A stretch of DNA of 64,000 bases from positions 55,001 to 119,000 of the forward strand of contig NZ_CVSB01000045.1 of assembly GCF_001179845.1 (NCBI RefSeq), written 5' to 3'. The notes beneath the pieces are model-generated. The model ran no database searches, was not told the DNA's origin, and saw nothing but the letters and a program-made list of their open reading frames with translations. The position numbers and the translations under genes are program-made. This document shows positions 1 through 19,831 of the stretch, one piece after another; positions within the stretch are counted from its first letter, which is position 1, and each line of letters starts with the position of its first letter. Source of the stretch: Candidatus Pelagibacter communis. GTDB lineage: Bacteria; Pseudomonadota; Alphaproteobacteria; Pelagibacterales; Pelagibacteraceae.

Positions 1-378
1 TTCTCTATTAATTAATTGCCAATTCAAAGGAGATCCACCTCTATATTTTGGTAATTTGCCAGCATGGCAATTAATTATTCCATATCTTGGTAAGTTTAAA
101 AAATCTTTTGGAAATATATAAGGAAAGCCACATATTATTCCTAGATCTATTTTTTTTAGATTATTTTTGATATTTGTTTTTCTTAAATTTGCAATTATTT
201 GACTTGGTATATTAAATTTTTTGATTTTTTTTATAATTGATTTATTTAAAAACTTTTTTGAGAGAAAAATTTTATCGATTTTAATTTTTTTATTTAAAAA
301 CTTGGTTAATTCATATCCTCTATTACCATTAATAAATAGCGATATTTTAAATTGTATTTCTTTATTGAAATTATTCAT
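1..378 (-). CDS. Formyltransferase-family protein (3' end lies outside window)
   Basis: The reverse strand is open from an ATG at 378 to the window edge, giving about 126 residues of the N-terminal part. It ends in the motif NCHAGKLPKYRGG followed by PLNW. This matches the formyltetrahydrofolate-dependent transferase fold shared by methionyl-tRNA formyltransferase and sugar N-formyltransferases, where an Asn/His pair and the LPxYRG loop sit at the active site. The gene diverges from spsF across 53 bp and lies in a glycan cluster, so I infer transfer of a formyl group to an amino sugar rather than a role in translation. The first ~100 residues are lysine-rich and diverged. The C-terminal part cannot be seen, so the substrate class is unresolved. 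Confidence 0.8.
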   Translation of the reverse strand, partial: MNNFNKEIQFKISLFINGNRGYELTKFLNKKIKIDKIFLSKKFLNKSIIKKIKKFNIPSQIIANLRKTNIKNNLKKIDLGIICGFPYIFPKDFLNLPRYGIINCHAGKLPKYRGGSPLNWQLINRE

Positions 379-431
379 GTTGTGTCTTAATCATTAATAC
401 TATTTTAAAATAAATAAATTTAAAACCATTT

Positions 432-1115
432 TTGACTACAGCAATTATACAAGTGAGGCTAAATTCCAAAAGATTGCCAGGTAAGGCATTGCTAAAAATT
501 AATGATAAACCAGTTTTACAGAATATTATAGAGAGATTGAAAAAATCAAAATCTGTAAAAAAGATAATTGTATCAACCTCTAACAAAAAAAGTGATGATC
601 CAATAGTTAGTTTTTGCAAAAAGAATAAGATATCAGTTTTTAAAGGCTCATTAAATAATGTTTTTAATAGAATAAAAATGACGTCAAAAAAGTTTAAATT
701 AGATTATTTTTTAAGAGTTTGCGCTGATAGTCCATTAATTGATCCTGTTATAATTGATAGATGTATGAAAAAATTTCTCAAAGGAAATTATGATATTGTA
801 ACAAACAAATTTCCAAGATCTTATCCAAAAGGACAAACTGTTGAAATTATTAGGGTTCGTGCTTTAAATAAGATTAATGAAAAAATTTTAACTTCTGATC
901 AAATAGAACATTTTACTAAATATTTTTATGATAATCCAAAAAAATTTAGAATCTACAATTTAAAGTTATCAAATCAAAAAAGATTCATCTCGATGGCATT
1001 AGATAGTAAAAATAACTTTGACTTTTTGAAAAAACTTACAAAAAAATATAAAGAAAAGATCAATGATTTATCTTTAAATCAATTAATTCAAATTTATGAA
1101 AAAAAAAATATTTAA
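432..1115 (+). CDS. SpsF/NeuA-type cytidylyltransferase family protein
   Basis: This 227-residue protein begins with the nucleotidyltransferase signature QVRLNSKRLPGKAL (RLPGK at 14-18) and has a second motif RVCADSPLID near 95-104. Both are typical of the SpsF / CMP-KDO synthetase-like family, which makes CMP-activated acidic sugars or related nucleotide sugars. No ATG exists near the N-terminus. TTG at 432 is chosen because it puts the conserved beta-strand at residue 4; no Shine-Dalgarno is visible. The next gene starts 20 bp before this one ends, and an aminotransferase and a NeuB-like synthase follow. I infer that it activates the product of that pathway, but the nucleotide and sugar are not proven by sequence. 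Confidence 0.85.
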   Translation: MTTAIIQVRLNSKRLPGKALLKINDKPVLQNIIERLKKSKSVKKIIVSTSNKKSDDPIVSFCKKNKISVFKGSLNNVFNRIKMTSKKFKLDYFLRVCADSPLIDPVIIDRCMKKFLKGNYDIVTNKFPRSYPKGQTVEIIRVRALNKINEKILTSDQIEHFTKYFYDNPKKFRIYNLKLSNQKRFISMALDSKNNFDFLKKLTKKYKEKINDLSLNQLIQIYEKKNI

Positions 1116-2091
1116 AGCTGGAGTAATAGGCTTGGGTGTAGGCATGCATCATGTTAAAGCTTTAAAAAATCATCCAAATTGTATTGTAAAAAAAGTATAT
1201 GATTTTAATAAATCAAAAAAATTAAACTTTAAAAAAAATTTTCCAAATATTGAATTTGTTAAAAATGAAAATGAAATATTCCAAGATAAAGAAATTAATA
1301 TTATTTCTTTAGCTAGCTATGATAATTTTCACTACGATCAAATACTCAAGTGTATTAAAAATAAAAAAAATATTATTGTAGAAAAACCAATTTGTCTAAA
1401 TCAAAAACAGCTTAGTTCAATAAATAATTTATTAAAAAAAACAAATTTAAAAATTACATCAAATATGGTTTTAAGAACTACAGGTTTATTTAGAGAAATA
1501 AAAAAAAAAATATCAAATAAAAAAATTATTTCTATAGAGGCTGATTATTTATGGGGAAGATCATTTAAATTATATCAGTGGAGATCAAAATTAAAAGAGT
1601 ATTCAATAATTCATGGATGCGCTATTCATGTTATTGATTTAATTTTATGGTTATTAAATAAAAAACCAATCTCAGTTTATGCAAAAGGAAATAATATTGG
1701 AATTAATACGAAAAAATTTAAAAAACATTCTTATGTAATAATTTTATTAAAATACAATAATAACTTAATTGTAAAGATCACAGCTAACGCAAGCTCAATG
1801 TATCCTCATTTTCATGAATTAAAAATTTTTTCAAAGAATTCAACAATTACCCATAATTTACAAGGATCTTATGAAATTAAAGGAAACAAAAAAATAAAAA
1901 AACTTTCATCAAAATATCCAGATAAAAAAAACAGATTAAATTTAATTCATAGTTTTGTAGACAATTTAAAAAATAGATATACTAAATCTATTGTTGATAA
2001 AAAAGACATAATGAATTCTATGAGCATATCTTTAGCAGCTGAAAAATCTTTGAAAATGGGAAAAGAGATAAAAATAAAATATGAAAATTAA
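1096..2091 (+). CDS. Gfo/Idh/MocA-family NAD(P)-dependent oxidoreductase
   Basis: The 331-residue protein has an N-terminal Rossmann motif GVIGLGVGMHH (residues 9-19) and the family's catalytic EKP at 96-98, followed by the usual alpha/beta C-terminal substrate domain. Members oxidise or reduce sugar hydroxyls, commonly in nucleotide-sugar or inositol metabolism. The ATG lies inside the 3' end of the cytidylyltransferase gene, and the stop overlaps the start of the aminotransferase by 11 bp, so the three are probably translationally coupled. A keto-sugar made here would be a natural substrate for the following DegT aminotransferase. The gene is very AT-rich and contains an 11-A run at 1500-1510. 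Confidence 0.88.
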   Translation: MKKKIFKAGVIGLGVGMHHVKALKNHPNCIVKKVYDFNKSKKLNFKKNFPNIEFVKNENEIFQDKEINIISLASYDNFHYDQILKCIKNKKNIIVEKPICLNQKQLSSINNLLKKTNLKITSNMVLRTTGLFREIKKKISNKKIISIEADYLWGRSFKLYQWRSKLKEYSIIHGCAIHVIDLILWLLNKKPISVYAKGNNIGINTKKFKKHSYVIILLKYNNNLIVKITANASSMYPHFHELKIFSKNSTITHNLQGSYEIKGNKKIKKLSSKYPDKKNRLNLIHSFVDNLKNRYTKSIVDKKDIMNSMSISLAAEKSLKMGKEIKIKYEN

Positions 2092-3172
2092 TTTTTCTAG
2101 TAATAAAATAAAAAAACAGGATATCAAACAAGTTGAAAAAATCCTTAAAAGTGGATGGTTAACTCATGGTAAAAATACAATCAATTTTGAAAATGAATTT
2201 AAGAAATTTACAGGAGCAAAGTTTGCAATCACTGTCTCAAGTTGTACTGCTGGATTACATTTATCTTGCATGGCCCTACAATTAAAAAAAGGTGATGAGG
2301 TAATTGTTCCATCTCAAACTCATGTAGCAACTGCTCATGCAGTTAAATTGACTGGGGCAACTCCAATATTTTGTGATATTAATTACCTCACAGGCTTAAT
2401 AAATCCAGAAAAGATTAAAAAAATTATTACCAAAAAAACTAAAGCTATTATTTTAGTACATATGAATGGTTTTTCTTGTGAAATTAATGAAATAAAAAAA
2501 ATTTGTAAAAGAAAAAAAATTAAGATTATTGAAGATTGCGCACATGGTTTAGGCTCTATGTATAATAAAAAGCATGTTGGAAATTTTGGTATCGCAGGAG
2601 TTTTCTCTTTTTATCCAACAAAGCAAATTACCACTGGAGAAGGTGGAATGCTAATAACAAATAATAAACAATTTGCAAAAAAAATAAGGTCTATCAAAGC
2701 TTTCGGAATTGATAAGGATATTACCCAAAGAAAAATTCCTGGATACTATGATGTTAAGGACTTAGGGATAAACTATCGTATGACCGACTTTCAGGCTGCA
2801 ATTGGTTATAAACAATTAAAAAGGTATCCTAAGGAACTTAAATTAAGAAAACAAAATGCAAAATATTTGTACTCACTTTTACAAAATTTAAAACATATAA
2901 AAATACCTAAATTTAATGAAGACTATTCTTATTTTATTTTTCCTATACATTCGACAAAAAGAAATAATTTAATGAAAAAATTAAAAGATAAAAAAATTGG
3001 CTTTAGTATACATTATGCTAAAGCGCTTCATCAAATGTCATATTATAAAAAAAAATCTTTTAAAATGATCAATGCAGAAAGATATGCTAAGACCAATATT
3101 TCCCTACCTATTTATGGAGCACTATCTAAAAATAAATTAAATTATATCTATAAGGCTTTAAATGAAATTTAA
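2081..3172 (+). CDS. DegT/DnrJ/EryC1/StrS-family sugar aminotransferase
   Basis: This is a 363-residue PLP-dependent enzyme of fold type I. Visible marks are the GWLTHG entry motif near 25-30, the aspartate of IEDCAHG at about 152, and the Schiff-base lysine K181 in the segment FYPTKQITTGEGG. The family transfers an amino group from glutamate to a keto-sugar, as in PseC, LegC or ArnB. Length is normal and no key residue is missing. It overlaps the Gfo/Idh gene and is followed 126 bp later by a NeuB-like synthase, the order expected for making an amino-sugar precursor of a nonulosonic acid. The exact sugar cannot be assigned. Confidence 0.92.
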   Translation: MKINFSSNKIKKQDIKQVEKILKSGWLTHGKNTINFENEFKKFTGAKFAITVSSCTAGLHLSCMALQLKKGDEVIVPSQTHVATAHAVKLTGATPIFCDINYLTGLINPEKIKKIITKKTKAIILVHMNGFSCEINEIKKICKRKKIKIIEDCAHGLGSMYNKKHVGNFGIAGVFSFYPTKQITTGEGGMLITNNKQFAKKIRSIKAFGIDKDITQRKIPGYYDVKDLGINYRMTDFQAAIGYKQLKRYPKELKLRKQNAKYLYSLLQNLKHIKIPKFNEDYSYFIFPIHSTKRNNLMKKLKDKKIGFSIHYAKALHQMSYYKKKSFKMINAERYAKTNISLPIYGALSKNKLNYIYKALNEI

Positions 3173-3263
3173 AAAAAAATTGTTTCTAATTGAAAGCTTA
3201 GATTTTTTAGTTAATAATTTATTAATTAAGTTTAGGCAAAATCATGAACTTCTTAAGCTATAA
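3162..3263 (+). CDS. Possible 33-residue small ORF, unrecognised
   Basis: An ATG overlapping the end of the aminotransferase in another frame opens a 33-residue reading frame that ends in TAA at 3261-3263. It is hydrophobic in the middle (FLIESLDFLVNNLLIK) with basic ends. I recognise no family. It occupies most of the 126-bp gap before the NeuB-like gene. In DNA this AT-rich a frame this short can be open by chance, so it may be a decayed fragment, a small coupled peptide or nothing. Confidence 0.15.
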   Translation: MKFKKKLFLIESLDFLVNNLLIKFRQNHELLKL

Positions 3264-3298
3264 AAAAAAATTTAAAATGATGCTAAACTTTTAGGAAA

Positions 3299-4303
3299 AT
3301 GAATTTTCTAAATAAATTTAAAAGAATTAAAAAACCTTTAATAATCGCTGAGATTGGGAATAATCATGAAGGAAATTTTAATAATGCTTTGAAACTAATA
3401 GATGCAGCTAAAAAATCAGGAGTGGATGCTGTTAAATTTCAGACTTTTAAAACTGATCTTTATTATTCTAAACATGACAAAGAAAGAGTTAAAAGGCTAA
3501 AAAAATTTGAATTATCATTTGAACAATTCTCAAAATTAGCCAAATTTGCAAAAAAAAAAAATTTGTTATTTATTTCAACTCCATTAGATTTAAAGAGCCT
3601 AGATCATTTAAAAAAAATTGTTGATATCATTAAAATATCTTCAGGAGACAACAATTTTCATGATTTAATTAAAAATTCTGTTAAGTCAAATAAAGAGCTA
3701 ATAATATCAACTGGACTTACCTCGTTAAGAGAAATAGAAGGTTTAAAAAAATTTATTCAAGATTTGAATTTTATTAAAAAAACTTATTTTCTTCATTGTG
3801 TTGCCAATTATCCCGTAGATCCTAAAAATGCAAATTTAAATTTTATATTAAAATTAAAAAAAATTTTTAAAGATAATATTGGTTACTCAGATCATACAAT
3901 TGGTATTGATGCATGTTTAATCTCATTTTCATTAGGATCTTTAATTATTGAGAAACATTTTACATTAGATAAATCATTCTCAAATTTCAGAGATCATGCA
4001 ATTTCTGCCGATCCAAAGGACATGAGTGAATTAGTAAAAAAAATTGAGATTTATAGAAAGTTGATGAATAACAAAAAAGAAAAATATTTAAGTTGTGAAA
4101 ATAAAGAACGAACTTTGTTTAGAAGATCTTATTATTTTAACAAAAACTTGTTGAAAAATACAATTATTAGATCAAATGATATAATTCCATTAAGGCCTGG
4201 TAATGGAATTAAATTAAATAAAAAACATCTTATAATAAATAAAAAAACAGTAAAAAATGTTAAAAAAGGATCAATAATAAAACTTTCAGATTTAAAAAAT
4301 TAA
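3299..4303 (+). CDS. NeuB-type N-acetylneuraminate/pseudaminate/legionaminate synthase family
   Basis: The 334-residue protein carries the NeuB TIM-barrel marks: AEIGNNHEG at 17-25, the GYSDHT strand at 195-200 and EKHFTLD at 218-224. A C-terminal antifreeze-like SAF domain follows (about residues 275-334, with LRPGNGI). The family condenses phosphoenolpyruvate with a six-carbon amino sugar to give a nine-carbon acidic sugar. Length is close to the usual 330-350. It follows the aminotransferase and precedes an AsnB-type gene by 6 bp. It contains a 12-A run at 3550-3561. Which of sialic, pseudaminic or legionaminic-like acid is made cannot be told from these motifs. Confidence 0.9.
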   Translation: MNFLNKFKRIKKPLIIAEIGNNHEGNFNNALKLIDAAKKSGVDAVKFQTFKTDLYYSKHDKERVKRLKKFELSFEQFSKLAKFAKKKNLLFISTPLDLKSLDHLKKIVDIIKISSGDNNFHDLIKNSVKSNKELIISTGLTSLREIEGLKKFIQDLNFIKKTYFLHCVANYPVDPKNANLNFILKLKKIFKDNIGYSDHTIGIDACLISFSLGSLIIEKHFTLDKSFSNFRDHAISADPKDMSELVKKIEIYRKLMNNKKEKYLSCENKERTLFRRSYYFNKNLLKNTIIRSNDIIPLRPGNGIKLNKKHLIINKKTVKNVKKGSIIKLSDLKN

Positions 4304-4309
4304 TTTTAT

Positions 4310-6124
4310 ATGTGTGGAATAGCAGGTTTCTATGGATCAAAATTACCAACTCGAAATAATATAAATATATCTAGCAAGTTAATAAGACATAGAGGTCCAG
4401 ATGCCAAAGGTGTCAAAATTATAAAAAATGATAAATTAGTTTTAATTCATAGAAGATTATCAATTATTGATATTGATCAAAGATCAAATCAACCAATGGA
4501 ATATGAAAATACTATCTTAATATTTAACGGAGAAATTTATAATTACATTGAAATTAAAAAACAATTAATTTCAATGGGACACACATTTAAAACAAATTCT
4601 GACACAGAAGTATTAATTCATGCTCTTAAACAATGGAAAGAAAAGGCAGTAGACTTTTTGGAAGGAATGTGGGCATTTGCTTGGTACGATAACAATACAA
4701 AAAAATTAATTTTATCAAGAGATAGATTTGGGGAAAAACCCTTATATTATTTTTTAAAAGATAAAAATTTTTTTTTTAGTTCTGAAATAAAATCTTTATC
4801 AGCGCTTTCATCTAAAAAATTTAAAATTAACTTTGAAAAAGTAGAGGAATTTTTAAAAAATGGTTATAAGTCTTCATTTAAGGACAAAAATTTATTTTTT
4901 AAAGATGTATTTCAAATTAAACCAGGATCACTTTTTATTGTCTATAAAAATAAAAAAACAAAAAGTATTGATTATTGGAAAAAAAAAAGAAAAATTTCGA
5001 ATAAAAAAATAACATATAGAAAAATAGTAGAAAAGAATAAAACTAATCTAATTAGATCTGTTAAATTAAGAACACGATCAGATGTCCCAATTGGTTTTTG
5101 TATGAGTAGTGGAGTTGATTCTAATGGATTAATTTCAATAGCAAAGAAAAAATTAAAACAAAATATAATTGGTTATAATATATATAGTAAAAATAAAAAT
5201 TATGATGAATACGGACTTACTAATAAATCTGCAAAAAAACTAAATATTAAATTAAAGTTAGTAAAAGTCCCAAGAACAAACTTTCTCAGAAATTTAAAAA
5301 AAATTATACAAAACAGAGGATATCCATTATTTACAATCTCCTATTTTTTACATTGGTTTATGATGAAACAAATGAAAAAAGATAGAATCAAAGTATCAAT
5401 AAGTGGTTCAGCTGCGGATGAAATTTATTCTGGTTATATTGATCATTTTAATCAATATTTTTATCAAATTAAAAGTGACAAAGCTCTTCTTAATAAAACT
5501 AAATCTGATTGGCAAAGATATTTTCTAAAATTTATACAAAATAAAAATTTAAGAAAATATGATTTATATTTTAAAAATAAAAATTTTAGAGACCACATTT
5601 ATGATAAATATCCAAATGAAATTTTTGTTAATCAAAAGAAATCAAGATTTAATGAAAAAAAATTTTCAAATGATTTATTGAGAAATAGAATGATGAATGA
5701 ATTATATCATGAAATTGTTCCAGTTATACTTCATGAAGATGATTTAAATTCTATGAATTTTTCAATTGAAAATAGAACTCCTTATCTTGATAGCAAGATA
5801 TATGATTTTATTCAATCTATACCAACTAAACATTTAGTAAAAAATGGATTTTTAAAATCAATATTAAGAGAATCTCTTAATAAAATAGCTCCTAATTTTA
5901 TAATTAAAAATCGAAAAAAGATTGGATTTAATGCATCAATTTATGATTATATCAATATTAGATCAAAAAGTTTTAAATCAATTATTGAAAGCAAATCAAA
6001 AATATTTAACATAATTAATCGTAAAAAATTTTATGAATTTATTTTAAAAAATAAATCACCTGAAAATAGCAAACTTATATTTCGTTTTCTTTCAGCAAAA
6101 TTTTTTTTAGACCAAAATACCTAA
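4310..6124 (+). CDS. asnB: AsnB-like glutamine-dependent amidotransferase
   Basis: This 604-residue protein starts MCGIAGF, so Cys2 is the glutaminase nucleophile after Met removal. The class II glutaminase domain has RHRGPDA, NGEIYNY and DTEVL, and the ATP-pyrophosphatase domain has SSGVDS at 266-271 and ENRTPYLD further on. The chemistry is ATP-dependent amide formation from a carboxylate using glutamine. In glycan clusters such proteins (for example WbpS) amidate uronic or other acidic sugars, whereas elsewhere they make asparagine. The location 6 bp after a NeuB-like gene favours carboxyl amidation of a surface sugar, but an asparagine synthetase role is not excluded. The PP-loop has SSG where SGG is usual. 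Confidence 0.88.
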   Translation: MCGIAGFYGSKLPTRNNINISSKLIRHRGPDAKGVKIIKNDKLVLIHRRLSIIDIDQRSNQPMEYENTILIFNGEIYNYIEIKKQLISMGHTFKTNSDTEVLIHALKQWKEKAVDFLEGMWAFAWYDNNTKKLILSRDRFGEKPLYYFLKDKNFFFSSEIKSLSALSSKKFKINFEKVEEFLKNGYKSSFKDKNLFFKDVFQIKPGSLFIVYKNKKTKSIDYWKKKRKISNKKITYRKIVEKNKTNLIRSVKLRTRSDVPIGFCMSSGVDSNGLISIAKKKLKQNIIGYNIYSKNKNYDEYGLTNKSAKKLNIKLKLVKVPRTNFLRNLKKIIQNRGYPLFTISYFLHWFMMKQMKKDRIKVSISGSAADEIYSGYIDHFNQYFYQIKSDKALLNKTKSDWQRYFLKFIQNKNLRKYDLYFKNKNFRDHIYDKYPNEIFVNQKKSRFNEKKFSNDLLRNRMMNELYHEIVPVILHEDDLNSMNFSIENRTPYLDSKIYDFIQSIPTKHLVKNGFLKSILRESLNKIAPNFIIKNRKKIGFNASIYDYINIRSKSFKSIIESKSKIFNIINRKKFYEFILKNKSPENSKLIFRFLSAKFFLDQNT

Positions 6125-6233: not shown

Positions 6234-7274
6234 ATGTTTGATCTTAAAAAACTTAAGGGCAAGAGTGTTGCTCTAGTTGGTGGAGCGGGCTTTATTGGAC
6301 ATAATTTAGCACTGAAACTGAAAGAATTGGGAGCAGAACCATATGTAATAGATGGATTGCAAGTAAATAACATTGGCTATTATACTAGTGATTATGAAAA
6401 AAATATAAATGCAGAACGATATATTGCTTTTATTAATGAGAGACTTTCATTGCTCCGTAAAGCAAAGATAGGTCTAAAAATAATTGATGTTCGTGATTAT
6501 CATGCCATTAGTCATGCTATCAATGAAATAAAACCAGAAACTGTAGTTCATTTAGCTGCGATAGCACATGCCAACAGGTCTAATAAAGATCCATTTTCAA
6601 CTTTTGATCATAGTTTGAGAACATTAGAAAATGTTCTAGATGTAACCCGTTCTAAAGGCATTCATGTAATCTACTTTTCTTCCTCAATGGTCTATGGAAA
6701 TTTTGATGGTGAAACTGTCACAGAAGACAGGGAGTGTAATCCAATGGGAATTTATGGAGCTTTAAAGTATGGTGCTGAAAAACTTGTTATTGGATATAAC
6801 CAGGTTTTTAATCTTCCTTATACTATTATTCGTCCCTCAGCTCTTTATGGTGAGCGTTGTGTAAGTAGAAGAGTAGGTCAGGCTTTTATTGAAAATGCTC
6901 TTGTTGGAGAAGATTTGACAGTAAATGGAGATGGTAAAGAAGGTCTAGACTTTACTTACATCAATGATCTTGTACAAGGTATTATTTTATCAATAATCAA
7001 ATCAGATAGTATAAATCAAATTTTTAATATTACTTTCGGCGCAGCTCGTTCCATTAATCAATTAGCTGAGATTGTTATGGAAAAATTTCCAGGAATTAAG
7101 CTGCATCACAAAAAACGAGATGGTCTGATGCCAGAAAGAGGAACTTTAAGTATTGCAAAAGCGCAAAAGTTGCTTGGATATACCCCTCAACATCCTGTTG
7201 AGAAAGGATTTGTTCAATATATTGATTGGTATAAGAATTTCGCTGAGAGCAACCCACAGTTTTTCAAAAAGTGA
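6234..7274 (+). CDS. NAD-dependent SDR sugar epimerase/dehydratase
   Basis: A 346-residue extended SDR with GGAGFIG at 16-22, an SSS stretch near 149-151 and the catalytic Y174-x3-K178. Members epimerise, dehydrate or decarboxylate nucleotide sugars; the sugar is not evident. A GGAG Shine-Dalgarno sits 8 bases before ATG 6234. The base composition differs from its neighbours: 26 G/C of 60 at 6241-6300 against 10 of 60 at 5941-6000, with several CGT arginine codons where the flanking genes mostly use AGA. This suggests recent transfer from a less AT-rich genome. The last four bases GTGA also form the start of the next gene. Confidence 0.9.
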   Translation: MFDLKKLKGKSVALVGGAGFIGHNLALKLKELGAEPYVIDGLQVNNIGYYTSDYEKNINAERYIAFINERLSLLRKAKIGLKIIDVRDYHAISHAINEIKPETVVHLAAIAHANRSNKDPFSTFDHSLRTLENVLDVTRSKGIHVIYFSSSMVYGNFDGETVTEDRECNPMGIYGALKYGAEKLVIGYNQVFNLPYTIIRPSALYGERCVSRRVGQAFIENALVGEDLTVNGDGKEGLDFTYINDLVQGIILSIIKSDSINQIFNITFGAARSINQLAEIVMEKFPGIKLHHKKRDGLMPERGTLSIAKAQKLLGYTPQHPVEKGFVQYIDWYKNFAESNPQFFKK

Positions 7275-8659
7275 ATATTTACATAAAAATAGAGGTAAAA
7301 CGTAGAGAACTTGAATCAAGGTTATTACTAGCGATGGCCGCAGCTGAAAGAGGTCATCAAGTTTTACTTGGAGCAAGTAACTTAACATTAGATTTAGTCA
7401 AACAAAAAAAATTAAAACCAGGGATAATATTTGAAAAAAGTATTGTGCCATCAAAAAAAAGAATTAATCAACTGAGGGCTTATAAAAAAAATAATTGTAA
7501 AATTACTGTTATTGATGAAGAAGGTGGATTTATTAATAATAACTTTACTACTGAATTTTTAAAAGAAAGATTCTCTGCACAATCAGTAGCACTTACGGAT
7601 AAGGTTTTTACATGGGGAACTAGAGACTATAAAAAGTTTATTAATTACTTTAAGAAATTTAAAAATAAGTTTTCTCGAACTGGGAATCCGAGAATAGATT
7701 TTTGGAGAAAAGAGTTTAATTGTTACTATAAAAATCAAAAATTAAATCAGATTAAACCAAAGGATAATTTTATATTACTTGCATCAAATTTTGGAGCAAT
7801 GGTTCATGAGCATAGGATTTGGCAAGAAATAAGTTTGCTTAGAGAACTTAATAATTTTAAAAGAGGACGTGATGAATTTTTATTTTATGAGTATAAGTCT
7901 TATAAAATAAGATTAGCTGCAAAATTTGTAAAAGCATTTAGAAAAATATCAAAAAAATTTAAAAATTTAAAAATAGTAATCCGACCTCATCCTACAGAAA
8001 GTGTAAAAGCCTGGAAATCAATAATAGGTGATCATAAAAATATCTATGTTATAAATGATGGATCAATAGGCAAATGGATAAGAAAAGCAAAATTAGTGGT
8101 GCATAATAGCTGCACTAGTGGAATCGAGTCGTATATTGCAAATGTACCAACTATTGCTTACAGACCTTTAAAGTCAAATTTTGATTTAAAATTCCCAAAT
8201 GCTTTATCAATTAACATTTATGATGAAGAAAATTTGATTAAAAAAATTGAACAAATTATCAAAAAGAATAAAAATTTTTATAATAAAGATAAAAAACTAA
8301 ATAATTATTTTTATAACTTAGAAAATAATTTTGCATTTGAAAATATAGTAAATGAATGGGAAAAAATTGATGATGGTAGATTATCTGAAAAAAATAATTT
8401 TTTAAAATTGAAAGTTATTGCGAACAGTAAAGAACTAAAAGGAAAAATAATTAATAGAGTTTTCTCTAAAACTGCAAACAAATCATCTTCTAACAGCGCA
8501 ACATATAAATTTCCAAAAATAACAAATAATGAATTAATGACATTAACTAATGGAATAAAAAATACCTTAAAAAGATTTAAAAAAGTAAATGTAGAGCTAT
8601 TTTCGGATAGATTAATTTTAGTAAATAAAAAAAATAATAACAATGACAATTCTTGGTAA
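7271..8659 (+). CDS. Surface carbohydrate biosynthesis protein (glycosyltransferase-like)
   Basis: This 462-residue protein begins KIEVKRRELESRLLLA, the hallmark of proteins annotated as surface carbohydrate biosynthesis. Later parts (VIRPHPTES, then HNSCTSGIESY) resemble the nucleotide-sugar binding C-terminal half of GT-B or CDP-glycerol-transferase-like enzymes. The GTG start overlaps the stop of the epimerase gene by four bases, and the 3' end overlaps the ABC transporter start by 17, so the three are likely coupled. The gene is typically AT-rich (6 G/C of 60 at 7921-7980), unlike the genes on either side. The acceptor and donor sugars are unknown; the assignment rests on overall resemblance. 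Confidence 0.7.
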   Translation: MNIYIKIEVKRRELESRLLLAMAAAERGHQVLLGASNLTLDLVKQKKLKPGIIFEKSIVPSKKRINQLRAYKKNNCKITVIDEEGGFINNNFTTEFLKERFSAQSVALTDKVFTWGTRDYKKFINYFKKFKNKFSRTGNPRIDFWRKEFNCYYKNQKLNQIKPKDNFILLASNFGAMVHEHRIWQEISLLRELNNFKRGRDEFLFYEYKSYKIRLAAKFVKAFRKISKKFKNLKIVIRPHPTESVKAWKSIIGDHKNIYVINDGSIGKWIRKAKLVVHNSCTSGIESYIANVPTIAYRPLKSNFDLKFPNALSINIYDEENLIKKIEQIIKKNKNFYNKDKKLNNYFYNLENNFAFENIVNEWEKIDDGRLSEKNNFLKLKVIANSKELKGKIINRVFSKTANKSSSNSATYKFPKITNNELMTLTNGIKNTLKRFKKVNVELFSDRLILVNKKNNNNDNSW

Positions 8660-12479: not shown

Positions 12480-13523
12480 ATGAATAAAAAAGCTCTTATA
12501 ACAGGAATAACTGGCCAAGATGGTTCATATTTAGCTGAATATTTGTTAGATAAAGGTTATATAGTTCACGGAATTAAGAGAAAGTCTTCATCGTTCAATA
12601 CAAGCAGGATAGATCACATATATAAAGATTCACATTTATCTTCTAATTTATTTCTACATTATGGAGATTTGACCGATGCAAGTAGCTTAGTAAATGTATT
12701 AAATAAAATTAAACCTAATGAGATATATAATTTAGCTGCTCAAAGTCACGTTGGACATTCATTTGAAATACCAGAGTATACTTCTGAGGTAACAGGCCTA
12801 GGCACTTTAAGAGTTTTAGAGGCAATGAGATTTTTAAATTTAAAAAAAACTAAATTTTATCAAGCTAGTACCTCAGAACTATTTGGACAAAAACCTAATA
12901 GATCAAACTCATTTAATGAAAATTCAATTATGATTCCTAAATCGCCTTATGGTGTTTCAAAACTTTATTCATATTGGATAACGAAAGTTTATAGAGAAGC
13001 ATATAATTTTTATGCCTGTAATGGAATTTTATTCAATCATGAAAGTCCTAGGAGAGGCGAAACTTTTGTTACGAGAAAAATTACAATGTTTTTTGCTAAA
13101 AAAATATTAGGATCTAAAGAAATTTTATATTTAGGAAATTTAAATGCAAAGAGAGACTGGGGTCACGCAAAAGATTATACAGAGATGCAATGGAAAATTT
13201 TACAACAATCAAAACCTGATGATTATGTAATTGCTACTGGCAAAACAACAAGCATAAGAGAATTTGTTAATTTATGCTGTAAGTATCTGAAATTAAAGAT
13301 TTTATGGAGTGGAAAAGGAATTAAAGAAAAAGCATACTTAATTAAAAATGGTAAAAAGGAACTGATTATTAAAATTGATAAAAAGTATTATAGACCTTTA
13401 GAAATAGATTATTTAAAAGGTAATCCAAAAAAGGCTTTAAAAAAATTAAATTATAAATTGAAACATAGTTTAAAAGATTTAGTGAAAGAGATGATTGACT
13501 CTGATATTAAACTGCTGAAATAA
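12480..13523 (+). CDS. gmd: GDP-mannose 4,6-dehydratase
   Basis: This 347-residue extended SDR converts GDP-mannose to GDP-4-keto-6-deoxymannose, the first step to GDP-L-fucose. It shows GITGQDGSYLAEYL at 9-22, the catalytic triad region TSELFG (131-136) and Y157-x3-K161 in SPYGVSK, plus the substrate loop HESPRRGETFVTRKI, all typical of Gmd. Length matches the family. It is followed two bases later by fcl, forming a complete two-enzyme GDP-fucose module. The region near residues 275-305 (KEKAYLIKNGKKELI) is lysine-rich but in the usual position of the C-terminal substrate domain. Confidence 0.95.
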   Translation: MNKKALITGITGQDGSYLAEYLLDKGYIVHGIKRKSSSFNTSRIDHIYKDSHLSSNLFLHYGDLTDASSLVNVLNKIKPNEIYNLAAQSHVGHSFEIPEYTSEVTGLGTLRVLEAMRFLNLKKTKFYQASTSELFGQKPNRSNSFNENSIMIPKSPYGVSKLYSYWITKVYREAYNFYACNGILFNHESPRRGETFVTRKITMFFAKKILGSKEILYLGNLNAKRDWGHAKDYTEMQWKILQQSKPDDYVIATGKTTSIREFVNLCCKYLKLKILWSGKGIKEKAYLIKNGKKELIIKIDKKYYRPLEIDYLKGNPKKALKKLNYKLKHSLKDLVKEMIDSDIKLLK

Positions 13524-13525
13524 AA

Positions 13526-14470
13526 GTGAAGAAATCTGATAATATTTTTATTGCTGGTCACAAGGGCCTTGTGGGAAATGCGGTTTATAAATTACTGCAA
13601 AGAAAAGGTTTTAAAAATTTAATTACTATCGATAAAAAAAAAATTGACTTGAGAAACTCAACTTTAGTAGACAATTTTTTCAAAAACAAGAATATTGATT
13701 ATATGGTAATGGCTGCTGCAAAAGCAGGAGGTATAATTGCTAATAGTTCAAATCAAAAAGATTTTTTTTTAGACAATATAGAAATCCAAAATTCATTACT
13801 TAAACTTGCATTAAAAAAAAAAATAAAAAGAACAATATATTTAGGTACCTCTTGTATTTATCCAAAATTTTCTAAAGTACCTATAAAAGAAGAAAGCTTA
13901 TTAGCTGGTAATTTAGAAAAAACTAATCAGTGTTATGCTATTGCAAAAATAGCTGGTATTAAGTTATGTGAAGCTTTGTTTGAAGATTATAATTTAGATA
14001 TAGTATGCTTAATGCCAACCAATGTTTATGGAGACAATGATAATTTTAACAAAGTTACTGGCCATGTAATTCCAGCTATAATATCTAAAATCGAGGAAGC
14101 AAAAAAATCTAACAAAAAAAGCGTTAAACTACTTGGCACAGGCAAACCATTAAGAGAATTTATACACACCGAGGATTTGGCTGAATCAATTGTAAAATGT
14201 TTATTTATAAGTAAAAAAGTTTTAAAAAAAAAATATAAATTTAAGCTTCCAGTGATAAATGTTGGCACAAATGACGAAATATCAATTAAAAATTTATCAA
14301 AATTAATTGCAAAGTTTGCAAGATATAAAGGTAAGATAGAATTTGACCATAAATCTCCAGATGGAACTTATAGAAAAGGACTTAATTCAAGTAAAATGAG
14401 AGATCTTGGTTGGTATCCACGAATTAAACTAAAGGATGGTTTAAAAAAAGTTATTGAAAAAAGGTTATAA
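13526..14470 (+). CDS. fcl: GDP-L-fucose synthase
   Basis: The 314-residue SDR has GHKGLVGNAV at 11-20, the characteristic LGTSCIYPK segment near 106-114 and catalytic Y137-x3-K141. The family performs 3,5-epimerisation and NADPH-dependent 4-reduction of GDP-4-keto-6-deoxymannose to GDP-L-fucose. The GTG start at 13526 is two bases past the gmd stop, so the pair is surely one operon. It is convergent with a minus-strand glycosyltransferase, with 8 bp between stops. No key residue is missing. The fucose is presumably used by one of the glycosyltransferases in this island. Confidence 0.95.
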   Translation: MKKSDNIFIAGHKGLVGNAVYKLLQRKGFKNLITIDKKKIDLRNSTLVDNFFKNKNIDYMVMAAAKAGGIIANSSNQKDFFLDNIEIQNSLLKLALKKKIKRTIYLGTSCIYPKFSKVPIKEESLLAGNLEKTNQCYAIAKIAGIKLCEALFEDYNLDIVCLMPTNVYGDNDNFNKVTGHVIPAIISKIEEAKKSNKKSVKLLGTGKPLREFIHTEDLAESIVKCLFISKKVLKKKYKFKLPVINVGTNDEISIKNLSKLIAKFARYKGKIEFDHKSPDGTYRKGLNSSKMRDLGWYPRIKLKDGLKKVIEKRL

Positions 14471-18362: not shown

Positions 18363-18478
18363 CGCCGGTGATTATTGCGTAGGTGTTATACCCGATCCCA
18401 TATCGAACTCGGTAGTCAAGCCCTACAGCGCCAATGGTACTTTGTCTTAAGGCATGGAAGAGTAGGACGTTGCCGGCA
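18363..18478 (+). rRNA. rrf: 5S ribosomal RNA
   Basis: About 115 nt with the 5S hallmarks: 5' GCCGG (18364-18368) pairs with 3' CCGGC (18473-18477) to form helix I, and the interior holds the conserved CCCGATCCCATATCGAACTCGG loop segments, here split as CCCGATCCC and CGAACTCGG. No 23S or 16S sequence lies upstream; instead a sugar epimerase gene ends 62 bp before it. The rpmJ start lies only about 14 bases after the 3' end with no hairpin terminator, so the mature 3' end must be made by processing. Exact ends are uncertain by a few bases. Confidence 0.95.
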
Positions 18479-18617: not shown

Positions 18618-18622
18618 TTTTT

Positions 18623-18733
18623 ATGGATAACAAAAACCATAAAGATACCTGGAACAATTTTACAAAATTTGTGTTGTGGGGAACTGTCGCTGTTATATGT
18701 GTTTTGGTATTAATGGCAATATTTCTTTTGTAA
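18623..18733 (+). CDS. aa3-type cytochrome c oxidase subunit IV-like small membrane protein
   Basis: This 36-residue protein has a polar start (DNKNHKDTWNNFTKF) and one membrane helix (VLWGTVAVICVLVLMAIFLL) to its C-terminus. The sequence HKDTWNNFTKF followed by a single helix is the pattern of the bacterial aa3-type cytochrome oxidase subunit IV family, which in alphaproteobacteria often sits just before pntA. It would lie in the inner membrane beside the oxidase core. It sits 5 bp after rpmJ and 9 bp before pntA. The family call rests on this short pattern plus context. Confidence 0.75.
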   Translation: MDNKNHKDTWNNFTKFVLWGTVAVICVLVLMAIFLL

Positions 18734-18742
18734 GGTTTCCGA

Positions 18743-19831
18743 ATGAGAATTGGATCTATATTAGAAAATCAAAATCTTGAAAAGAGAATTGCCATAACAC
18801 CTGAGTTAGTAAAAAAATATACTTCTCTTGGTTTTGAAGTAAATTTAATTGAAAATTATGGTTCTCATCTTGGTATAAAAGATGAGCAATTCAAAGATAT
18901 GGGTGTTAAAATTTCAAAAGATGAATCAGAAGTTTTAAATGTTTCTGACATAATTGTTCAGCTTGGAATGTTGTCTGATGATAAAATTTCTAAAATTAAA
19001 GAAGATCAAACATTAATTGGAGTTTTAAACCCTTACAAAAATAAAGAGCAATTAGAAAACTTAGCCAAAAAAAAAATCAATCTTTTTTCTCTTGAATTAC
19101 TTCCAAGAATTACTAGGGCTCAATCAATGGATATATTGTCTTCACAAGCGAACCTTGCTGGTTATAAAGCAGTTATAGAGTCTTTTGCCAATTTTGAAAA
19201 AGCTATACCAATGATGATGACGGCAGCAGGCACTGTCCCCGCCGCAAAGGTTTTAGTGGTTGGCGCAGGTGTTGCAGGGTTACAAGCAATTGCTACGGCG
19301 AAAAGAATGGGTGCGATAGTTTTTGCTACGGATGTAAGAATGGCATCAAAAGAACAAGTTGAAAGTTTAGGTGGTAAATTTTTAACTGTAGAAGGTTCAG
19401 AGAATTTAGAAACTGAGGGAGGTTATGCAAAGGAAGCATCTGAAGATTTTAGACAAAAACAAGAAGAACTTTTATCTGAAACTTTAAAAAAAATTGATAT
19501 AGTAATTTGTACAGCCCTAATACCAGGTAAAAAAGCTCCATTGATAATTAAAGATAAAATGATTGAGAATATGCAATCAGGATCAGTAATTTATGATCTC
19601 GCAGCAATTCAAGGGGGGAATACTGCATTTACAGAAGTGGATAAAATTATAGAAAAAAACGGAATAAAAATAATGGGTGAGAGTAATATTTTAAATAAGC
19701 TACCTGTTTCTGCTTCAAACTTATATGCCAAAAATGTCTTTAATTTTGTTGATAATTTAATCGACAAAGAGACTAAAAAAATAAATATTAATTTAGAAGA
19801 TGAAATTATAGAAAAAACATTAATAAAGTAA
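18743..19831 (+). CDS. pntAA: NAD(P) transhydrogenase subunit alpha, part 1 (NAD-binding domain I)
   Basis: The 362-residue soluble domain I of proton-translocating transhydrogenase. It opens MRIGSILENQNLEKRIAITP, as in the alanine dehydrogenase/PNT N-terminal family, and has the NAD-binding Rossmann VLVVGAGVAGLQAIATAK near 170-187. Together with the two following genes it forms the three-polypeptide transhydrogenase common in alphaproteobacteria, using proton motive force to reduce NADP+ with NADH. Spacing to the next gene is 3 bp. In cells without an obvious oxidative NADPH source this is a main supply of NADPH; that is inference from family knowledge. Confidence 0.95.
   Translation: MRIGSILENQNLEKRIAITPELVKKYTSLGFEVNLIENYGSHLGIKDEQFKDMGVKISKDESEVLNVSDIIVQLGMLSDDKISKIKEDQTLIGVLNPYKNKEQLENLAKKKINLFSLELLPRITRAQSMDILSSQANLAGYKAVIESFANFEKAIPMMMTAAGTVPAAKVLVVGAGVAGLQAIATAKRMGAIVFATDVRMASKEQVESLGGKFLTVEGSENLETEGGYAKEASEDFRQKQEELLSETLKKIDIVICTALIPGKKAPLIIKDKMIENMQSGSVIYDLAAIQGGNTAFTEVDKIIEKNGIKIMGESNILNKLPVSASNLYAKNVFNFVDNLIDKETKKININLEDEIIEKTLIK

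Follow-up and report, generated by a model that had tools for sequence, protein, structure and literature searches.

A candidate nonulosonic acid cassette with its own dehydrogenase/reductase family in hypervariable region 2 of a SAR11 genome

The window analyzed here is a 64,000-nucleotide stretch of a Candidatus Pelagibacter communis (SAR11) genome of 1.14 Mb (C45:55001-119000; contig NZ_CVSB01000045.1). Its left end carries a gene cassette centered on a NeuB-family synthase and an SpsF-type cytidylyltransferase (Table 1), which would together make a nonulosonic acid and activate it with cytidine monophosphate (CMP). The cassette is found without the enzymes known to supply NeuB with its substrate, and it recurs, with a dedicated short-chain dehydrogenase/reductase (SDR), in SAR11 and in distant Alphaproteobacteria.

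Gene content and genomic setting

The SpsF, Gfo/Idh, DegT, NeuB and AsnB genes lie on one strand with successive spacings of -20, -11, +126 and +6 bp, a tight arrangement that marks a five-gene operon. The formyltransferase gene diverges from SpsF at a distance of 53 bp and is cut by the left edge of the window. An earlier sequence-only reading of this stretch had named these six families, and the domain profiles confirm each of them at the place given. That reading missed a further core gene, an extended SDR just beyond the interval it described, which overlaps the downstream TIGR04396 gene by 4 bp.

Table 1. Genes and intergenic site of the cassette, in window coordinates
Feature	Position	Strand	Evidence
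Sugar N-formyltransferase, N-terminal 126 aa only	1..378	-	PF00551 31.1 bits (cut-off 26.1); gene continues into masked N
SpsF-type cytidylyltransferase (TTG start), proposed CMP-sugar synthetase	432..1115	+	PF02348 95 bits (cut-off 22.6)
Gfo/Idh/MocA dehydrogenase	1096..2091	+	PF01408 64 bits
DegT-family pyridoxal phosphate aminotransferase	2081..3172	+	PF01041 383 bits
DegT-NeuB spacer, 126 bp, SDR site in relatives	3173..3298		No SDR remnant above shuffled sequence
NeuB-family nonulosonate synthase	3299..4303	+	PF03102 206 bits (cut-off 22.1); SAF 23.0 bits (cut-off 21)
AsnB-type glutamine amidotransferase	4310..6124	+	TIGR01536 389 bits (cut-off 267)
cSDR, cassette-specific extended SDR, divergent copy in new position	6234..7274	+	cSDR family member, 575 bits
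TIGR04396 surface carbohydrate biosynthesis protein, candidate transferase	7271..8659	+	295 bits (cut-off 125)

Two SAR11 genomes, SCGC AAA795-D22 (locus L011) and AG-333-A19 (locus L012), share the order divergent formyltransferase, SpsF, Gfo, DegT, SDR, NeuB, AsnB, WbuX, small protein and TIGR04396. The SpsF, Gfo, DegT, NeuB and AsnB proteins of the window are 79-91% identical to their counterparts there, in the same order. This conservation, together with the recurrence of the set in distant Alphaproteobacteria, argues that the adjacency is not due to chance.

The rRNA layout identifies the locus as SAR11 hypervariable region 2 (HVR2): a 16S rRNA gene, two tRNA genes and the 5' end of a 23S rRNA gene (C45:49717) lie to the left of the window, and a 5S rRNA gene is found at window position 18364. 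HVR2 is the 23S-to-5S region of SAR11 genomes that holds cell-surface and surface-polysaccharide genes (PMC2217521). The locus resembles it in carrying surface-polysaccharide genes between the two rRNA genes, and the present cassette is not described in that paper. SAR11 bacteria are among the most abundant cells in the ocean, and the surface chemistry that HVR2 encodes is largely unknown.

The 5000 bases directly left of the window (C45:50001-55000) are masked as N. They must contain most of the 23S gene and the remainder of the formyltransferase gene; if the former is about 2.75 kb long and the latter as long as its L011 counterpart, about 2 kb is left unaccounted for. The sequence-only reading had named standard pathway genes in this flank as an outcome that would overturn its interpretation. 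The two close relatives have none there; they carry ABC transporter, carbamoyltransferase and methyltransferase genes at this position. A whole standard gene set is unlikely to fit into the masked 2 kb, which could still hold one hidden gene.

The synthase, the cSDR and the recurrence of the gene set

The window NeuB is identical to the Neisseria meningitidis enzyme at fifteen catalytic and metal-binding positions (E25, K53, Q55, T110, K129, S132, S154, Y186, S213, D214, H215, E234, H236, D247 and R314, in meningococcal numbering), the C-terminal arginine included. Meningococcal E134 is replaced by Asp, as in 6ncs and in the NeuB of locus L055. A tree, which the earlier reading had proposed as a check, places the protein inside the NeuB family and outside the sialic and pseudaminic (Pse) clades, each supported 100/100. 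Its nearest named relatives come from Pelagibacter genomes. The SAR11 NeuBs of loci L054 and L057, which lie outside the cassette, form a pair of their own (100/100).

The SDR gene is located between DegT and NeuB in L011, L012, L044-L046, L049 and L050. Long invariant stretches common to the ten SDRs first compared define one family, which was named cSDR. At the equivalent site of the window, the search of the 126-bp spacer for an SDR remnant gave a score within those of shuffled sequences. The window cSDR is only 56% identical to the L011 protein, and its gene has a guanine-cytosine content of 34% versus 20-27% for the other cassette genes. The window locus thus seems to have swapped its cSDR for a divergent copy at a new place. 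A search of viral contigs for cSDR returned distant SDRs only, the best at 43% identity.

The motif S-S-S-[MT]-V-Y-G is present in 26 of 26 cSDR copies compared (SSSMVYG in the window). At the position of the R-D-[FWY] motif, all 26 have Leu, versus Arg in nine of nine reference SDRs, so that the family lacks this mark of the SDRs that act on nucleoside diphosphate (NDP)-linked sugars. In such enzymes, for example GalE and RmlB, the arginine contacts the nucleotide phosphate. The cSDR was also considered as the missing 4,6-dehydratase and rejected, since the motif Glu of dehydratases is lacking. Against the LegB model it scores 96 of the 475 bits required.

The combination SpsF-Gfo-DegT-cSDR-NeuB occurs at NeuB neighborhoods of SAR11 genomes G040, G045, G119, G157 and G005 and of a 6.5-Mb alphaproteobacterium (G284), the loci of G119 and G045 being cut by contig ends. 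A plasmid search located the cassette on Azospirillum brasilense MTCC4039 p5 as well. With the cSDR profile as sole bait (threshold 1e-90), matches were obtained in 23 of 385 genomes of the class, 3 of 399 of the phylum and 12 of 297 relatives; these sets overlap, and eight of the matching genomes, including the one carrying the window, belong to the same genus. This search yielded ten new loci with strong matches and uninterrupted flanks (G531, G472, G324, G330, G430, G315, G523, G241, G619 and G885), one of them (G619) from another class of the phylum. NeuB, AsnB, WbuX, SpsF and Gfo are present in all ten and DegT in nine; within 20 kb, neither NeuC nor PseG nor LegB scores more than 60 bits in any of them. 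The set shared by carriers in SAR11, diverse Alphaproteobacteria and the genome of the other class is SpsF-Gfo-DegT-cSDR-acyltransferase-NeuB-AsnB-WbuX. The stronger NeuB of G241 is found on the neighboring stretch L047, as are a formyltransferase and a deacetylase. More distant cSDRs (347-356 bits) make up a second group, which occurs alongside many of the same genes in L197, L198, L199 and L201.

These loci bear on an alternative in which two sugars are made, one by SpsF, Gfo, DegT and cSDR and the other by NeuB, AsnB and WbuX, the two groups being neighbors only as surface genes. HVR2 is a patchwork, AsnB is also found near other SAR11 NeuB genes, and the two groups lie on opposite strands in L198. 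We nevertheless regard this alternative as very improbable, given that NeuB lies within 20 kb of the cSDR, mostly in one run, in ten of ten independently found loci.

Several minor features accompany the cassette elsewhere. A conserved protein of about 120 aa without Pfam match is encoded behind WbuX at many cassette loci (L011 13339-13701; L012 13966-14331). In G157 (L049 7112-9458), the acyltransferase site between cSDR and NeuB is taken by a DUF4910/DUF2172 protein together with a 360-aa protein that has no match. The Gfo/Idh gene of A. brasilense MTCC4039 p5 (L084 6675-7681) has been annotated in two overlapping parts, which may reflect a frameshift.

Acylation, amidation and transfer

The formyltransferase fragment, which is ArnA-like, shares 85% identity with its uncut L011 counterpart of 286 aa. 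The N-x-H motif is present in the edge-cut fragment, and the catalytic Asp is found in intact relatives. While the gene is divergent from SpsF in the window, L011 and L012, formyltransferase genes stand between cSDR and NeuB in L050, L189 and L195. GNAT acetyltransferase genes take that position in A. brasilense and in the majority of the ten loci found with the cSDR bait; in L045 one adjoins SpsF. The strongest argument for the formyltransferase acting on the DegT-derived amine is this alternation of GNAT and formyltransferase genes. The enzyme is probably the N-acylation step of the cassette, and the N-formylation proposed by the earlier reading gains support from the alternation. The order given in that reading, with formylation after activation, is a prediction, and several carriers have the acyltransferase gene between cSDR and NeuB. 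In Geobacillus, a different sugar pathway has been reported to show a formyl/acetyl exchange in a single slot (PMC5109656). A gene of the polysaccharide-deacetylase type also occurs in L048, L050, L189, L199 and L201.

The amidotransferase has the N-terminal Cys and the PP-loop of AsnB-type enzymes, with a sugar as its putative substrate. The PP-loop reads SSG[VI]DS in the window (SSGVDS), L011 and L012, versus SGGxDS in other, more distant carriers. The amidine-forming WbuX, an N-acetyl-sugar amidotransferase, is absent from the genome carrying the window and present in seven of seven other SAR11 carriers searched. Of the amidation suggested earlier, AsnB is thus the one component present in this genome, and an amidine product is plausible for the relatives that bear WbuX.

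The TIGR04396 protein, 73-74% identical in L011 and L012, adjoins the cassette in those genomes too. With the model of the BFO_1060 glycosyltransferase it scores 94 bits, below the cut-off of 200. Nonulosonate transferases of Tannerella have about 445 aa (PMC6388019). At 462 aa the protein is similar in size and may be the transferase of the cassette product.

Sugar supply and the proposed route

The enzymes that deliver the NeuB substrate in standard pathways were searched for in the available, 92%-complete genome. No candidate for the Epimerase_2 family of NeuC and WecB (PF02350) was found in the sequence at hand, 5 kb of which are masked; control searches with this profile were positive in 11 of 14 cases. 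AGE (PF07221) was likewise not found in this genome, and PseG (TIGR03590, cut-off 153.55 bits) was matched only in part, at 41 and 19 bits. The NanE search yielded only a marginal signal of 26-31 bits in a 360-aa frame, taken for another TIM barrel, and PF02719 retrieved generic SDRs only. As for LegB, the cSDR falls far below the cut-off, and no genome-wide search was made with LegB's own model. The statement of the sequence-only reading that NeuC, LegB, PseB and a standard NeuA are not visible holds for the window. For dehydratases in general it needs qualification: Gmd, a 4,6-dehydratase, is encoded at 12480-13523 (507 bits, cut-off 415), outside the conserved cassette.

An ordinary sialic, Pse or legionaminic (Leg) pathway was rejected, the defining enzymes being absent and NeuB standing outside the named clades. 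The cassette shares with the sialic pathway (NeuC, NeuB, NeuA) the NeuB family and its catalytic residues; it differs in having no NeuC or standard NeuA and in a NeuB without N184, N74 and F288, which are common to the meningococcal and S. meliloti enzymes. The PseBCHGIF and LegBCHGIF pathways follow the same logic of amination, N-acylation, condensation with phosphoenolpyruvate and CMP activation, whereas PseB/LegB and PseG/LegG are missing here and the window NeuB lies outside the PseI clade. Formyl and acetamidino variants of Pse and Leg products are known (PMC6388019). The Leg pathway of the Bacillus subtilis sps genes (PMC7439481) likewise leads through an aminotransferase (SpsC), a NeuB-family enzyme (SpsE) and a cytidylyltransferase (SpsF) to a CMP-nonulosonate. 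It differs in its use of the UDP-N-acetylglucosamine 4,6-dehydratase SpsM, an acetyltransferase and SpsG, with no counterparts of SpsM and SpsG found here, and no Gfo/Idh, cSDR, AsnB or WbuX step is named there. The comparison with Pse, Leg and Sps genes suggested earlier shows a conserved cassette that differs from these gene sets, and no description of it was found in the open-access literature.

We tentatively propose, with slightly less than even confidence, that the product of the cassette is an N-formylated amino-nonulosonic acid, activated with CMP and destined for an HVR2 surface polysaccharide, and that it is made without an NDP-sugar hydrolase of the NeuC/PseG type or a 4,6-dehydratase. 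Gfo/Idh and cSDR would oxidize and/or epimerize a sugar that is not nucleotide-linked, and DegT would aminate the resulting ketone. The amine would then be acylated by the formyltransferase (by a GNAT acetyltransferase in other carriers), and NeuB would condense the aldose with phosphoenolpyruvate. SpsF would attach CMP; AsnB, with WbuX where present, would introduce a late amide or amidine; and the TIGR04396 protein is the candidate transferase. The reactions, their order, the substrate, its lack of a nucleotide link and the product are predictions from gene content. Amination outside the nucleotide-linked pool is favored by analogy with the kanosamine route NtdC-NtdA-NtdB (PMC8788734), in which a dehydrogenase and a pyridoxal phosphate aminotransferase aminate a sugar that bears no nucleotide. 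The analogy is one of logic and not of membership, since that route starts from glucose 6-phosphate, modifies C3 and lacks NeuB, SpsF and an SDR. The profile of the window Gfo is nearest to inositol dehydrogenases and far from WbpB/WlbA, and its AlphaFold model (predicted local distance difference test score, pLDDT, 90) has the same nearest folds. The best PDB match of SpsF is the cytidylyltransferase 6oew. The protein misses the KdsB and PseF equivalog cut-offs (32 of 206 bits for PseF), and its activity on a nonulosonate is predicted from its PF02348 family.

Several observations weigh against the proposed route, and part of them would suit a Leg- or Pse-like one. The window NeuB stays below the equivalog cut-offs for sialic NeuB (TIGR03569, 259.9 against 399.65 bits) and for PseI (TIGR03586, 207 against 340.25 bits). 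On the trees the cassette NeuBs imply two changes, or one in 27% of bootstraps, and a single origin is neither supported nor excluded because the backbone is unresolved. The cassette locus of G885 (L196) has no detectable DegT gene. Elsewhere in their genomes, carrier G157 has an Epimerase_2 protein and carrier G284 a PseG; the genome carrying the window is 92% complete, with about 2 kb beside the formyltransferase gene masked. DegT is nearest to nucleotide-sugar aminotransferases, the closest structures being ArnB and QdtB, and scores 323 bits with the PseC model (cut-off 423.5). By fold, the predicted cSDR structure (pLDDT 89) comes closest to UDP-sugar epimerases, a likeness that any extended SDR might have.

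These likenesses of DegT and cSDR, the ArnA-like formyltransferase and the room hidden beside the window are what an NDP-sugar route would build on. Gfo and cSDR would prepare a UDP- or GDP-sugar, DegT would aminate it, the formyltransferase would acylate it, and an unrecognized hydrolase would release the sugar for NeuB and SpsF. We consider this route somewhat unlikely: PF02350 and a genuine PseG are absent from the genome carrying the window and, in ten further genomes, from the cassette locus, the arginine that contacts the NDP phosphate is lacking in every cSDR copy, and Gfo is remote from the WbpB/WlbA enzymes.

Amination might instead follow condensation. NeuB would make a simple nonulosonate, Gfo and cSDR would oxidize it, DegT would aminate the free acid, and formylation and CMP activation would come last. 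KdnB and KdnA oxidize and aminate the free acid in this manner for 8-amino-3-deoxy-D-manno-octulosonic acid (8-amino-Kdo). Among the fold matches of Gfo are RgNanOx and YjhC, two members of the Gfo/Idh family that act on sialic acid derivatives; the 8-amino-Kdo transaminase 5k8b is among the DegT matches; and Gfo, DegT, cSDR and SpsF are grouped away from NeuB in L198 and L201. Late amination is nevertheless quite improbable, as no source of free N-acetylmannosamine was found in the genome carrying the window, 5k8b (140 bits) ranks behind other aminotransferases (203 bits) among the DegT matches, and the acyltransferase gene usually stands between cSDR and NeuB.

The nonulosonate-type, non-textbook character that the sequence-only reading gave the cassette thus stands, with NeuC and a genuine PseG absent from this genome and from the cassette loci elsewhere and the catalytic residues of NeuB retained; it is to be amended by the cSDR and by an amidation for which AsnB is the evidence. 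A broader possibility, which we hold with somewhat more reserve than the proposed route, is a further class of nonulosonate biosynthesis across Alphaproteobacteria, in which Gfo/Idh, cSDR and DegT would place the amino group on a sugar that is never nucleotide-linked, no hydrolyzing epimerase would be needed and one exchangeable gene would set the N-acyl group (acetyl or formyl). A recurrent cassette of NeuB and a cytidylyltransferase without the known NeuB-supplying enzymes poses a testable question, namely which sugar feeds NeuB. Methods that detect nonulosonate clusters by NeuC, PseB/PseG or LegB would overlook such a cassette or give it a wrong name.

Two further features lie in the window to the right of the cassette. 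Gmd and an adjoining Fcl-like gene (12480-14470) point to a GDP-fucose-type pathway within the same HVR2. A pntA small RNA motif (RF01810, 90 bits) is located at 18619-18680, between the 5S rRNA gene and a gene starting at 18743.

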